From assembly GCA_945907755.1 (NCBI GenBank), contig CAMDTN010000017.1:1-49175 (forward strand): a stretch of 49,175 nt of DNA. Reading direction: 5' to 3'. Source of the DNA: Singulisphaera sp. GP187. GTDB lineage: Bacteria; Planctomycetota; GCA-002687715. Position numbers and translations under genes: made by a program. Positions 2,481 through 8,523 of the stretch are shown piece after piece (the first letter of the stretch is position 1; each line of letters begins with the position of its first letter). The notes under the pieces are model-generated. The model was not told where the DNA came from and searched no databases. It saw only the letters and a program-made list of their open reading frames with translations.

Positions 2481-3332
2481 TCAGGCCAAGAGGCCTTGCT
2501 TGCGCATCACGCGCTCTTTCAGCCGCGTGATGACGTTGCTGTGGATCTGGCACACGCGAGACTCCGTAAGGTCGAGGATGCGCCCGATCTCTTTCATGGT
2601 GAGCCCCTCGTAGTAGTACATGATGATGATGCGCTTCTCTTTCTGCGAGAGGTGGCGGGTTAAGACATCGATGACGTCGCGGCGGTTCAGGTTTTCCAGT
2701 GGGGAATCGGAGCGCGTGTCGGCGATAACATCGGCCTTCTCGAGGCCGCCTTCACCGCGAGAATCATCGAAGCGGTCGGAGAGCGAGTGGATTGAAACCG
2801 CACACGACTCTTCGCGCATCTCGCGATACTCGGGGCTGCTGATGCCCAGTTCCTGTGCCATCTCCTCTTCGGTGGCGGCACGGCCCAGGCGCGATTCCAG
2901 CGCGCGGCACGCGCGAGCGATGCGGTTGGCCTTCAGGCGCACCAAGCGGGGCACCCAGTCCTGCGAACGCAGTTCGTCCAAGATGGCGCCGCGCACGCGG
3001 GTGCTGCAGTAGGTCTTGAACTTGATGCCGCGGGTCATGTCGAACCCGTCGATGGCATCCATCAGACCGAAGAATCCGGACGAGGTGAGGTCGTCCAATT
3101 CGATGCTGCGGGGCAAGGTCGCCAACAAACGCTCGCCGATGTAGCGCACCAGCGGGTAGTACCGCTCCAGAAGCTTGTTGCGCGCTTCCGTGTCGCCGTG
3201 CTCTTTGTAGGCAACCCAGAGCGCTTCGATCGCTAAGGGTTCACCGAAGCCCAGCTTGCCGTCTAAGACCTCGCCGGTGCGACTCACCGCCACCGTTGTT
3301 GCGACCGCCGTTTCCAACGCTTTCATGCTCAT
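2481..3332 (-). CDS. whiG: FliA/WhiG-family RNA polymerase sigma factor
   Basis: 283-residue sigma-28-type factor. Region 2 is seen in ALWVAYKEHGDTEARNKLLE, YYPLVRYIGERLL, ELDDLTSSGFFGLMDAIDGF and KFKTYCSTRVRGAILDELR. Region 3 is LESRLGRAATEEEMAQELGI. Region 4 with its helix-turn-helix is LSQKEKRIIIMYYYEGLTMK followed by EIGRILDLTESRVCQIHS. The family directs motility, chemotaxis or, in actinomycetes, development genes. No flagellar genes are in this window, so the regulon is unknown and the WhiG label means family only. Start ATG 3332 has a clear AAGGGGAAAG ribosome site. The gene has a leader of about 270 bases containing a c-di-GMP-type riboswitch and a terminator, so transcription probably responds to a cyclic dinucleotide. 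The VanZ-like gene follows after ten bases. Confidence 0.93.
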   Translation of the reverse strand: MSMKALETAVATTVAVSRTGEVLDGKLGFGEPLAIEALWVAYKEHGDTEARNKLLERYYPLVRYIGERLLATLPRSIELDDLTSSGFFGLMDAIDGFDMTRGIKFKTYCSTRVRGAILDELRSQDWVPRLVRLKANRIARACRALESRLGRAATEEEMAQELGISSPEYREMREESCAVSIHSLSDRFDDSRGEGGLEKADVIADTRSDSPLENLNRRDVIDVLTRHLSQKEKRIIIMYYYEGLTMKEIGRILDLTESRVCQIHSNVITRLKERVMRKQGLLA

Positions 3333-3386
3333 CGACTTTCCCCTTTTTGCGAGTCAGGGGGGAACCCGTGGGGGCGCGGCAAGCCG

Positions 3387-3431
3387 AAAAAAAGCAATCG
3401 GCCGACTCCGCGCACTCGCGGGAAGTCGACC
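3387..3431 (-). terminator. riboswitch-controlled intrinsic terminator in the whiG leader
   Basis: On the minus strand the arm GGTCGACT (3431-3424) pairs over eight positions, one of them G-U, with AGTCGGCC (3407-3400). The inner stem CC/GG and GCG/CGC closes on an AGTG loop. Six bases later comes a run of seven T (3393-3387). It lies 55 bases before the whiG start codon. Confidence 0.75.
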
Positions 3432-3440
3432 GTAAGGTCG
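3427..3440 (-). promoter_or_regulatory. alternative (antiterminator-type) hairpin competing with the whiG terminator
   Basis: Minus-strand CGACC-TTAC-GGTCG forms a perfect five-base-pair hairpin. Its 3' arm is part of the 5' arm of the terminator stem (3424-3431), so the two hairpins cannot coexist. It sits directly between the aptamer and the terminator, as expected of an expression platform. Which state the ligand favours cannot be read from sequence. Confidence 0.6.
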
Positions 3441-3448
3441 GATCCTCC

Positions 3449-3535
3449 TGCTTCGGCAACTGGCTGCCTTTCCACCTCTCGGTGGTTAAGGCCCTTTAGT
3501 TTTGCGCCCCAGCCTTTCGACTGGTTTGCCCGTTC
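3449..3535 (-). ncRNA. GEMM / cyclic-di-GMP-I riboswitch aptamer
   Basis: The minus-strand RNA contains the conserved GEMM landmarks in order. P1 is GGGCAAACC at the 5' side, with GGCAA pairing to UUGCC in GUUGCCGAAG at the 3' side. P2 is CCAGUC-GAAA-GGCUGG, six base pairs with the GAAA tetraloop that docks in this class, followed by the near-invariant GGGGCGCAAA. P3 contains GGCCUUAA, then CCACC-GAGA-GGUGG and AAGGC. This class binds c-di-GMP; close variants bind 3',3'-cGAMP. The GGG before CAAACC resembles the c-di-GMP form, but I cannot settle specificity by eye. The aptamer lies in the whiG leader, downstream of a good promoter and upstream of a switchable terminator. Confidence 0.88.
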
Positions 3536-3612
3536 GTGCAGCGAACCATTCCACTTTGTCCGCCGGCGTTTCCGCCTGCGGGGCGAAAGCCATACGGCCT
3601 TCACCTGTCGAG

Positions 3613-3641
3613 AGGATAGGCCGGCCAGCGAATGTTGTCAA
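3613..3641 (-). promoter_or_regulatory. sigma70-type promoter of the whiG leader
   Basis: Minus-strand -35 TTGACA (3641-3636), 17-base spacer, -10 TATCCT (3618-3613). An AT-rich tract (about 3640-3660) lies just upstream like an UP element and stands out in this GC-rich DNA. The predicted transcript starts near 3606 and reads through the riboswitch, giving a leader of about 270 bases. The interval 3642-3812, before the next gene end, shows nothing else. Confidence 0.75.
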
Positions 3642-3812: not shown

Positions 3813-6704
3813 TCAACGCTGCGATCGGTCTTCATGATGACCGCCACCTCGCGGCGTGGGAGTAGGCGCTGGACTGTCTCCTCGCTCCCGCGGATCGGCG
3901 CGCTGTCCGCCACGCTTCGTCCGTCCATCAGGGCGCTCCCCCAACACTTTTTTGGCGATTGCCCCGGTGGAAAAATTCTGGGTCCAGTAGGCGCCAGCGC
4001 TCGCCTTGCCGCAGCCGAGGTGACTCCAGTTGCCAAGGAGGTTGCGATGGTGCCCTGAGGAGTGACGCCACGCTGCCACGGCGCTCGCGCCGGAAGCCTG
4101 TCCCAAGGCGATGTTCTCAGACACACCGGCGGTCCAGCCTGCAAGTTTGGCGCGCTGCCCAGGCCCCTCGCGCCCCTTGGTCGGAGATGTGTGCGCAAAA
4201 TAGCCCAGCCGCTGCATTTCATCGCTGTGCTCGCGCGCACACGCGACCAAACGGTCGTCGGGCACCACGGGATCGAAACCCATCATGATGCGGTAGGCGT
4301 TGGTTGCAACGATGCAGTCGCGCTCATCCGGCGTCATGGCGCTCTGGCCTTCTACAAGACTCGCCAGATCCAGTCGCCGCTCAATGCGCTCAGCATCTTT
4401 GCCATCCATTACTGCGCTTTGCAAATCGACAAGGCTGTCCACCCAATCCAACAAAGCCGTTGGATCCTGCGGCGGCGCGCCCGCTTCAGCCAAGGCACGC
4501 GCTGTCTCGTCGAGCACTTGATAGGCATCCCGAAGCGCTTCATTCAGGTCCAAGACGCGGCGCGAAGGGTGCAGCCACAAGTCTTCGACTCGCGCAACGC
4601 GCTCATCCACATCTGACTGCACCGCCGCCTGTTCCGGCCCATACGGATAGGGATAGCGCCGTGAGTCTCGAATCAGCTCCAGAGCATGAGCGCGGGCTTC
4701 TTCCAACTCGCGCCGCAACTTTGCGCGCAGCTTCAAGAGCGGCGCACCAGAGAAATCTGCGTTGCTGCGCGCCTGCAATTCCAGCCGCTCGCGCCGCGAT
4801 GACAACGCCGTACGTGCCGCAACCTTCCCGACATCGCCCAGCGCCAACAACTCGTCCAACGCTACGCGCCATTCCAATCCACCACCGCCGTCAACCGTCT
4901 TGGCAGCCTGCTCGATGCGGCGATTCGCCAACAGCGCAGATTTTTCTAACGCTGTCAGAAACGCGCCGCCATGAAATTCAAACCCGGCTAACGGCACCGT
5001 GGCCAAGCCCTTGGCTTCAGCGACCAAGTCCGCCACTTCGCCGCGGAACGCTGCGTCACGCAAGCCCACATCCGCCAACAAAGTCAGTGTCGCCGCTGGC
5101 ACATGCGCTTCCAACAACCACTCCGCCGCTGTGCGCGCATCCTGCCCTTTCAAGCGTGCAGCATGCAACACGAGCGCTTGACGCGCCGGCTCGAAGCGCT
5201 CCCACTCAATGCGCATGCGTGCGCCAACACCGAGTTGAAAATCGAGGCCGCGGCTGTCCACGCCCTTCAAATCTGCACGGCTCTCATTGCCAAGGGAGAT
5301 GCCACGAAACATAGCGGGCTGCGACTGAACGCGTTGATTGAGGACTTGGGGGAAAGCGGCCAGCCGCTCCATGCGCGCCTTGCGTTTCAGGCAAAACTCG
5401 CGCGCTGCTCCCTTGGCAGCAGTTTCCGCCGCGGCTGCAAACGCATTCGCCGCAGCCACGAAATCGCGCTTCGCGGCAAAGCCCTCGGCTGTTGCGATCG
5501 CGTCGCGCACTGCGTTGCCTTCCGCAGGACGCACCTCTGCTGCGGGCACTGCACTCACCGTCGGTTGCTCTTGCAGAGGAATCATCGCCAACAGGGCACG
5601 CAGCTCGCCTTCGTGATCTGTGCCCTCGAAGCGCGGCAGGGCCTGTGTGATTGCGGACTGAGCATCGTTAGGCGCTGCGGAACGCAAACGCGTGCGCAAC
5701 GATTCGAATTCGCCACGCGCTTCCGAATCCACGCGCTCGCGCAAACTGCGTAAACGAAGTCGGCCAGATTCGTCCAAACTGGCGTCACGCGAAGCTTCGT
5801 CCAGCACCCACAAGGCGCGACCGAAACTGCGTCGGCCTAACTGGTCTTGGGCGCGAGCGCGTGCATCGCCAGCTTTGGCTTGAGCTCGCTGGGTGAGGAT
5901 CTCACGTCCCTGGGCCAACAATCCTGTGAACACGTTGTCAGGAATCAGTTGAGCAATGTCGGCGGGCCTTGCTCCGCGCAAAGCGGCTTCGAAAGCTGCA
6001 ATCGATTCGAACTCGGGATGCAACGCGATGGACTGGAGCGTGCCCAAGGCCTCCTCTTGACGCTCTGCAAGAGAAGCCGTTGAGGTCACTGCGGCGTCTA
6101 GCGCTGCCCGCAATTCGGGCGCTAGGCCTGCACGCGCAACCGCCGCCAAGCTTTGGTTGGCTTGTGTGAGGTCGCCGCGAGCCACGTGGGCGCTGGCGGC
6201 ATCAAGAGCGGTTTGGACCTCCATGATCTGGTCTTGGGCTGCGCCGCGCTGGCCCCACCACTGGTGGAGGCCGAACGCCGCTCCAGCGAGGACCATCAGG
6301 TAGAGCGCTGTTGTGACGAGACGCCGCCTCCGATGCGTATCCACGCGACTTGCGGGCGCGCCTTGCGCTGCGAAATCGGCCTTCGCGAGCACTCGGCGAC
6401 CTTCTGACTGCGCACAGAAGCGCATTTCAATATCAGGAGCAATGCGGATGACATCACCATGCTGCACAATGACTTGCGTTATCTCATGACCGTTCACCCA
6501 CGTGCCGTACGAGCTGCCTAAATCGGTCAAAACCCACCCGCTGGACGCGCGACGCAATTGGCAATGGCGGCGACTGACCGAGGGGTCTGTAAGCACGAGC
6601 TCGCAGGACGGGTCGCGGCCAATGCAAGTCTCATCGAACACGGGGTAGCTCGCAGCCAGTCCATCCCCCCCGAGTGGTTGCAGTTCTATGCGTACTTCAG
6701 CCAT
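3813..6704 (-). CDS. FHA - transmembrane - coiled region - CAP/SCP domain protein
   Basis: 963 residues in one polypeptide. An N-terminal FHA domain (about 20-97) shows IGRDPSCELVLTDPSVSRRH and DLGSSYGTWVNG, the phosphothreonine-binding fold, in the cytoplasm. One membrane helix (about 130-148, LVTTALYLMVLAGAAFGLHQ) follows. A long Ala/Arg/Glu-rich helical region (about 155-770) then leads to a CAP/SCP (PR-1-like) domain (about 780-910) with ACAREHSDEMQRLGYFAHTS, GVSENIALG, SSGHHRNLLG and YWTQNF. The last 55 residues are basic and low complexity. The layout suggests a signal-anchored envelope protein: phosphoprotein recognition inside, CAP domain outside. The function of bacterial CAP domains is mostly unknown. 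The start ATG 6704 directly precedes the FHA domain. It is the longest gene in the window. Confidence 0.85.
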   Translation of the reverse strand: MAEVRIELQPLGGDGLAASYPVFDETCIGRDPSCELVLTDPSVSRRHCQLRRASSGWVLTDLGSSYGTWVNGHEITQVIVQHGDVIRIAPDIEMRFCAQSEGRRVLAKADFAAQGAPASRVDTHRRRRLVTTALYLMVLAGAAFGLHQWWGQRGAAQDQIMEVQTALDAASAHVARGDLTQANQSLAAVARAGLAPELRAALDAAVTSTASLAERQEEALGTLQSIALHPEFESIAAFEAALRGARPADIAQLIPDNVFTGLLAQGREILTQRAQAKAGDARARAQDQLGRRSFGRALWVLDEASRDASLDESGRLRLRSLRERVDSEARGEFESLRTRLRSAAPNDAQSAITQALPRFEGTDHEGELRALLAMIPLQEQPTVSAVPAAEVRPAEGNAVRDAIATAEGFAAKRDFVAAANAFAAAAETAAKGAAREFCLKRKARMERLAAFPQVLNQRVQSQPAMFRGISLGNESRADLKGVDSRGLDFQLGVGARMRIEWERFEPARQALVLHAARLKGQDARTAAEWLLEAHVPAATLTLLADVGLRDAAFRGEVADLVAEAKGLATVPLAGFEFHGGAFLTALEKSALLANRRIEQAAKTVDGGGGLEWRVALDELLALGDVGKVAARTALSSRRERLELQARSNADFSGAPLLKLRAKLRRELEEARAHALELIRDSRRYPYPYGPEQAAVQSDVDERVARVEDLWLHPSRRVLDLNEALRDAYQVLDETARALAEAGAPPQDPTALLDWVDSLVDLQSAVMDGKDAERIERRLDLASLVEGQSAMTPDERDCIVATNAYRIMMGFDPVVPDDRLVACAREHSDEMQRLGYFAHTSPTKGREGPGQRAKLAGWTAGVSENIALGQASGASAVAAWRHSSGHHRNLLGNWSHLGCGKASAGAYWTQNFSTGAIAKKVLGERPDGRTKRGGQRADPRERGDSPAPTPTPRGGGHHEDRSQR

Positions 6705-7563: not shown

Positions 7564-8523
7564 ATGCCCAAGCAGCTTCAGGTGATGTTGGCCGACTTCG
7601 ATTCCGAGCGCTGCGACGCTCTTGCCGCCGACCTCACCAAGGCGGGCTGCAAGGTGACAAAGGCTGCCAACGGCTTGGAAGTTCTTGAAAATTGCACGCG
7701 CAGCATTCCTGAAGTCTTGGTGATGGAAGCGTTCCTGCCGCGCCGTAACGGCTTTGAAGTGCTGAAGGCTCTGAAGGCGGACGCACGCACTGCAGCGACC
7801 CGCGTGCTGCTGCTCATCGATGAAAGCGACGACTACGGGAATTCGCGCGCGCGACTTTGCGGCGCAGATGCCGTGATGGCGAGGCCAGTCAACAGCGAGG
7901 ATGTGGTAAGCGCGGTTACCGCACCCGTACCAGCTGCAGTGGTGCCTGCCATCGACAATATCCTCGACGCGCTCGACACGCGCGCCCGCGCTGAAAACCC
8001 ATTGGTGCAACACATCACTGATGCTGCCACAGGTTTGTTCAACAGGGCCTATACAGACTTGAAACTGGCTGAGGAATGCAAAAAAGCCCGGCGTTTCCAG
8101 ATTCCTCTGAGCTGCGTGGTGATCGCTTTAGATGACATGGGAGCTTTGGCTTCGCCTGCACATGCCGAGGATTTGCGTTCGGCCATGAACGAGGTTGCTG
8201 GGCTACTGCTCTGCGAATCCCGCGACATCGATCATCTCTCGCGCTACCAAGCGCACGAGTTTATGTTGCTGCTGCCGCACACCGACCGCGCCGGGGCTTC
8301 GGCCATGGCGCGCCGCATTCTCGACAGCATCAGCGCTCGTGGGATGCAAGTTCCAGGAGGCAGCAACCTGACCGCTTCTGCTGGCATCGCTGCGTTCTGC
8401 GCCGAAGACGGCGATGGCGCGGAGGGCCTCGTCACCCGGGCCCGCGATGCCCTCAAAGTGTCGCGCCACTGGGGCGGAAACCGCTTCACTTTGCACTCTC
8501 CTGACACCGCGCCTAAGACCTGA
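7564..8523 (+). CDS. degenerate receiver-GGDEF protein
   Basis: 319 residues. Residues 1-120 have the receiver fold (VMLADFDSERCDALAADL), but the phosphoacceptor aspartate position reads Glu (VLVMEAFLPRRNG). The switch Thr/Ser region reads LLLIDESD and the conserved Lys is Arg (VMARPV). Residues 150-315 follow a GGDEF domain (DAATGLFNRAYTDLKLAEEC through LTASAGIAAF), but the signature GGDEF reads QAHEF. Both halves therefore look catalytically dead, and the Glu may mimic a phosphorylated receiver. A sensor or scaffold role is the likeliest inference. A strong CAGGAGAG site precedes the ATG. The gene is divergent from the DUF5658 gene and lies upstream of the secretin unit, 4 kb from a c-di-GMP-type riboswitch. 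Confidence 0.8.
   Translation: MPKQLQVMLADFDSERCDALAADLTKAGCKVTKAANGLEVLENCTRSIPEVLVMEAFLPRRNGFEVLKALKADARTAATRVLLLIDESDDYGNSRARLCGADAVMARPVNSEDVVSAVTAPVPAAVVPAIDNILDALDTRARAENPLVQHITDAATGLFNRAYTDLKLAEECKKARRFQIPLSCVVIALDDMGALASPAHAEDLRSAMNEVAGLLLCESRDIDHLSRYQAHEFMLLLPHTDRAGASAMARRILDSISARGMQVPGGSNLTASAGIAAFCAEDGDGAEGLVTRARDALKVSRHWGGNRFTLHSPDTAPKT

Follow-up and report, generated by a model that had tools for sequence, protein, structure and literature searches.

The closest described systems place a FliA/WhiG-family sigma factor under c-di-GMP either through an RNA or through a protein. In Clostridioides difficile the flgB operon, sigD included, is controlled by the Cd1 (Cdi-1-3) riboswitch (PMC6366702), a proven OFF switch in which aptamer and terminator coexist and an antiterminator competes with both (PMC9262584). 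In actinobacteria the link is a protein, RsiG: a c-di-GMP-bound anti-sigma acts on the WhiG protein, so that high c-di-GMP keeps a sigma factor for sporulation or, in Rubrobacter, for type IV pili inactive (PMC8325347). We analyzed a locus on the minus strand of a contig of 49,175 nucleotides from Singulisphaera sp. GP187 (Planctomycetota; CAMDTN010000017.1), the whole of which we call the window. Like Cd1, this locus has a class I aptamer, here predicted to turn expression off by intrinsic termination; its aptamer, switching and terminator strands compete, by folding, as those of Cd1 do (PMC9262584); and a FliA-family sigma, SigD in C. difficile, would be placed under c-di-GMP (PMC6366702). 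Whereas Cd1 controls a 23-kb flagellar operon of which sigD is one gene, and its sigma is flagellar, the gene here stands alone, away from the flagellar cluster, and encodes a paralog of FliA. The likeness to RsiG-WhiG lies in a FliA/WhiG-family sigma that high c-di-GMP would keep from acting and that may serve functions other than flagella; the difference is that control here is predicted at the level of RNA, before the protein is made. An earlier note on this DNA had proposed such an RNA route as a different solution from the anti-sigma protein; RNA-level control is what we also predict, but it is not unprecedented, given C. difficile sigD under Cd1 (PMC6366702).

RESULTS

For this locus we computed the aptamer, the promoter, the terminator, the alternative pairings of the leader, and the conservation of the aptamer-sigma pair. 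Read along the minus strand from 3641 to 3330, the order is promoter, leader, aptamer (3540-3452), platform (3451-3387), and sigma start (3332); all of the elements that the earlier note had placed at 3332-3641 (minus) were present. The regulated gene (2481-3332, minus strand) encodes an RNA polymerase sigma factor of the FliA/WhiG family, 283 aa long with Sigma70 regions 2, 3, and 4, and a probable ribosome-binding site, AGGGGAAAG (3336-3344, minus), can be read from the sequence 5' of its start codon. The protein passed TIGR02479 (FliA/WhiG family) with 247.9 bits against a cut-off of 189.6 but did not reach that of the WhiG equivalog PRK06288 (257 versus 343 bits). Thus, the name WhiG/FliA sigma, which the note had used, holds for the family, with WhiG as a family label only, and the protein is a paralog of the FliA linked to flhA. 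That second FliA-family sigma is encoded beside flhA in the flagellar cluster (C3:96555-97235) and is 37% identical to the window sigma. A supported branch (97/91) in a tree of 63 sigmas separated all of the flhA-linked rows, several of which have long branches, from all 32 aptamer-linked rows, which lay together with ten aptamer-less relatives. The window sigma showed neither linkage to flhA or flagellar genes nor grouping with the flhA-linked FliA; the riboswitch-linked sigma is a paralog, not the flagellar FliA. The aptamer-linked sigma was present without detected flhA in genomes G003, G004, G009, G011, G023, G037, G051, and G054 (86-94% complete). Because it forms a separate clade and occurs in these eight genomes, the simplest reading is that its role lies outside the core flagellum, and we infer that it drives a different regulon from that of the core flagellar genes.

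The flagellins and flhA encoded in the window's genome would suit a second flagellar sigma as well, in which case c-di-GMP would shut down flagella, as it does in C. difficile, and would regulate motility alone; the promoter specificity common to FliA and WhiG (PMC8325347) and the fitness of OFF control for motility also speak for this. We consider it unlikely, since a separate FliA of a different clade adjoins flhA, the riboswitch-linked sigma is retained in eight genomes without detected flhA, and its neighbors are not flagellar genes. 

To the 3' side of the aptamer, folding of the window leader gave two alternative hairpins. P1 is extended by the 5' strand CUGC (3538-3541, minus), which pairs with GCAG (3451-3448). 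The switching strand, GCAGGAGG (3444-3451, minus), would be the P1 3' strand in the ligand-bound RNA and the 5' strand of the antiterminator in the ligand-free RNA. In the antiterminator (3418-3451, minus) this strand, at 3451-3444, pairs with CUUCCCGC (3425-3418) around CGACC (3440-3436) and GGUCG (3431-3427); the CGACC/GGTCG hairpin of the earlier note was found where claimed, but it is only the inner half of this larger structure. The computed energy was −15.1 to −16.8 kcal/mol, and 3 of 1000 prefix shuffles were equally stable. The intrinsic terminator (3387-3432, minus) consists of the hairpin CGGUCGACUUCCCGC - GAGU - GCGCGGAGUCGGCCG (3432-3399), then AUUGC and U7 (3393-3387), so that the terminator with seven T was also as described; its hairpin had −22.8 to −23.9 kcal/mol, and none of 40 shuffles was as strong. 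A simple terminator scan did not report it, because five bases lie between the stem and the T run. Seven bases of the terminator arm pair with the first 9 nt 3' of the aptamer, and the 3' half of the antiterminator is common to the terminator 5' arm, which makes the two hairpins mutually exclusive, as the note had said of their arms.

Before the terminator 3' arm has been made, the antiterminator fold was favored over aptamer plus P1 (−52.7 versus −46.0); once that arm was included, aptamer plus P1 plus terminator reached −61.7 versus −60.3 for the antiterminator fold. As the antiterminator fold wins before the 3' arm exists, the ligand-free default would be ON. At low c-di-GMP the RNA that follows the aptamer would fold into the long antiterminator, using the P1 3' strand, the terminator would be blocked, and the sigma factor would be made. 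At high c-di-GMP the bound ligand would lock P1 (CUGC:GCAG), and the antiterminator would lose its outer strand; the U7 terminator could then form, and transcription would end before the sigma gene.

An antiterminator of the Cd1 type, drawing on the P1 3' strand and incompatible with the terminator, was obtained by folding in every one of the nine leaders from families f1 and f3, whose sequences have diverged (besides the window, G001-G005, G007, G009, and G011). When the 5' part was shuffled, only 1 to 90 of 1000 sequences per leader reached the stability of the antiterminator, and pairing of the terminator arm with the leader's own P1 strand was individually common in shuffles (97 to 549 of 1000); the case for P1-strand pairing rests on recurrence across leaders, not on rarity in a single one. 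Because the strand logic is the same as in Cd1 we predict the OFF direction, and because nine genomes from two families share the antiterminator although their sequences have diverged, c-di-GMP most likely turns the sigma gene off. The terminator-based platform that had been claimed for the sigma gene is thus supported, and its architecture further predicts its direction. Control of the opposite sign, in which binding of c-di-GMP would prevent termination and raise sigma expression, is improbable here: homologous GEMM-I aptamers do work as ON switches elsewhere, for example Bc2 of Bacillus thuringiensis (PMC6366702), and so does the cGAMP-sensing pilM riboswitch (PMC9262584), but the pilM terminator uses an aptamer strand, whereas in the window the P1 3' strand goes to the antiterminator, leaving aptamer and terminator free to form together.

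The OFF architecture is a property of f1 and f3. In the f2 genomes G006, G008, and G010 we found a terminator-like hairpin and a T run, and folding gave no clear antiterminator; the T runs of the terminators in G003, G005, G007, G009, and G011 are interrupted. Outside the order most families are without a terminator 3' of the aptamer, and therefore the mechanism is not transferable to them; start codons there lie 11 to >300 nt past the aptamer. Occlusion of the Shine-Dalgarno sequence was considered for loci L065, L077, L087, and L091, with start codons 11-20 nt from the aptamer, and was rejected, the folds being inconsistent. The P1 stem itself is supported across loci by the pairing of its strands: with the strands of 51 loci matched the energy was −7.66 kcal/mol, versus −6.69 ± 0.31 when they were re-paired, and none of 300 permutations was as good. 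The pairings differ by lineage, CUGC:GCAG in the window and GGUC:GACC or GCUUC:GAAGC elsewhere, as compensatory forms.

The GEMM aptamer of the earlier note, for which a search with RF01051 had been proposed, was matched over its full length (c-di-GMP-I, 3452-3540, minus; model positions 1-87 of 87) at 75.4 bits against a gathering threshold of 35, with an E-value of 4.2e-13, and a genome-wide covariance-model search returned it as the sole match in the 2.68-Mb genome. The residues equivalent to positions 20 and 47 are G (3530) and A (3503). The first G of GGCAAA (position 20) was invariant among the 28 aligned planctomycete aptamers, and GGCAAA and GCAAA occurred in the window and all aligned relatives, giving G20 and A47, the ligand-contact residues of the c-di-GMP form. 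The change that confers cGAMP binding on GEMM-I riboswitches is G20A (PMC6274999); no A stands at this position in the window or in any of the 28 aligned sequences. Since G is invariant at position 20 and the motif is GCAAA, not GCGAA, we infer from these specificity residues that the ligand is c-di-GMP and not cGAMP. The earlier note had left these two to be compared within a c-di-GMP-type switch; the GEMM-I assignment stands, and the choice narrows to the former. Binding of 3',3'-cGAMP, or of an unknown ligand recognized by a variant class of GEMM-I, is quite improbable. Within the order, some leaders are listed under the variant model RF03167 (c-di-GMP-I-GGC) rather than RF01051, and L010, L014, and L058 score above its gathering threshold; yet the G that distinguishes this variant (GCGAA, replacing A47) is missing, L001, L010, L014, and L058 all having the canonical GCAAA, and the genome encodes ordinary cyclases with an intact GG[D/E]EF motif (three of its five GGDEF-domain proteins). 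A response regulator with a GGDEF domain lies within the window itself (7564-8523, plus strand), about 4.2 kb from the sigma gene; from its signature, QAHEF, it is probably not an active diguanylate cyclase.

The claim of a consensus promoter was close to the mark: the sigma-70-type promoter of the leader (3613-3641, minus) has TTGACA as its −35 element (3641-3636), a 17-nt spacer, and TATCCT as its −10 element (3618-3613), with 10 of 12 consensus matches, and one such site was found where shuffles gave an expectation of 0.1. It is retained in the same-genus genomes G001 and G002. Between promoter and aptamer on the minus strand lie about 70 nt of leader with two stable hairpins of their own, the AGGCCGUAUGGCUUUCGCC region and CCGCAGGCGGAAACGCCGGCGG (3545-3606). 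That aptamer-like and hairpin-like sequence was assembled by chance in a G+C-rich leader, where hairpins are common, has a negligible probability and is ruled out by the aptamer's E-value and by its retention throughout the phylum, in every case on the coding strand and immediately 5' of the sigma gene.

The related contigs are Planctomycetota metagenome-assembled genomes, a caveat on all genome-wide statements made here. Within the order the aptamer preceded the same sigma gene in 12 of 12 genomes, the window included, and the pair was also found in seven genomes of other families (G023, G026, G029, G037, G045, G051, and G054). Among 80 relatives of the sigma from public Planctomycetota genomes, 51-54 had an aptamer on the coding strand just upstream, the higher figure counting matches to our own model with E-values up to 0.1, three of them (L061, L089, and L090) weak. 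As this model, R1, kept only 8 base pairs, its matches were spot-checked with Rfam, which confirmed 14 of 15 and missed L089; no Rfam match was found upstream in the 16 aptamer-less sigma loci checked. The earlier note had set a conserved leader in relatives against whiG without one, and it was the conserved leader that we found. The aptamer-less loci belong mostly to one sister clade, which includes Planctomycetes bacterium Poly30. In this clade (L085, L092, and L095-L110, including CP036434) the same sigma occurs, with no upstream Rfam riboswitch in the loci checked, and it looks like the aptamer was lost or replaced. The aptamer-sigma pair has outlived its expression platforms, because outside the order terminators are mostly missing and the distances to the start codon vary. 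A separate observation concerns G058, of the same phylum (3.6 Mb, 99% complete; loci L194-L213), which had 36 c-di-GMP-I aptamer matches versus 1-3 in each of the other positive genomes; of the matches inspected, several precede genes for proteins predicted to be exported, a sensor kinase, a response regulator, or a tail-sheath-like protein (names assigned by eye).

A search for the regulon with TAAA-N14-16-GCCGATA promoters was abandoned: it gave one exact site each in the window's genome and G001, otherwise none conserved, and reversed-pattern controls occurred at least as often. These two sites of the genus, TAAAG-N15-GCCGATA at L163 (G000:C1:27434-27460) and L162 (G001:C22:54053-54079), precede orthologous 329-aa exported proteins that are 71% identical, and are possible targets of one of the two FliA-family sigmas, either one. 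No TAAA-type site stood out before ten pilin-like genes, type IV pili being the WhiG target in Rubrobacter, and the anti-sigma FlgM, a short and divergent family, gave no match at E up to 1. Upstream of the sigma gene are genes for a phosphoribosyltransferase, arginyl-tRNA synthetase, and CAP and FHA proteins; downstream are those for VanZ and HDOD proteins. As a clue to the regulon the neighbors were rejected, with nothing flagellar and nothing constant across loci. CAP and FHA proteins do recur upstream of the sigma gene in several relatives, and in the window a 963-aa protein (3813-6704, minus) has an FHA domain joined to a C-terminal CAP (SCP-like) domain. The earlier note's contrast with control of single genes is not supported as stated; the switch precedes one sigma gene.

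DISCUSSION

We consider it likely that a class I c-di-GMP riboswitch forms the leader and that it turns off, at the level of transcription, a FliA/WhiG-family sigma gene that stands alone. Neither the aptamer nor its way of switching is new in kind, and C. difficile sigD provides a precedent. In the part of the literature covered, mostly titles and abstracts, we found no account of a riboswitch controlling a sigma gene that stands alone, nor any of this pair in Planctomycetota; to that extent a stand-alone, apparently flagellum-independent sigma held under a c-di-GMP riboswitch across a phylum appears to be undescribed.

We put forward, with confidence evenly divided for and against, that this is a Planctomycetota-wide module in which a c-di-GMP riboswitch became the dedicated regulator of a FliA/WhiG-family sigma freed from flagellar control, with RNA as the sole link from c-di-GMP to a non-flagellar lifestyle regulon, the platform having been replaced several times and the aptamer-sigma pair kept. 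If true, it would be the RNA counterpart of the actinobacterial RsiG-WhiG switch, a parallel reached by an independent route. The usual route from c-di-GMP to gene sets is through protein receptors, and c-di-GMP riboswitches mostly precede structural genes or operons. One retained on a sigma gene throughout a phylum would let the level of the second messenger set how much of a promoter-specificity factor is made, with no anti-sigma protein involved. For c-di-GMP signaling in Planctomycetota it would offer an entry point, a single RNA and a single sigma factor with a regulon that can be mapped.
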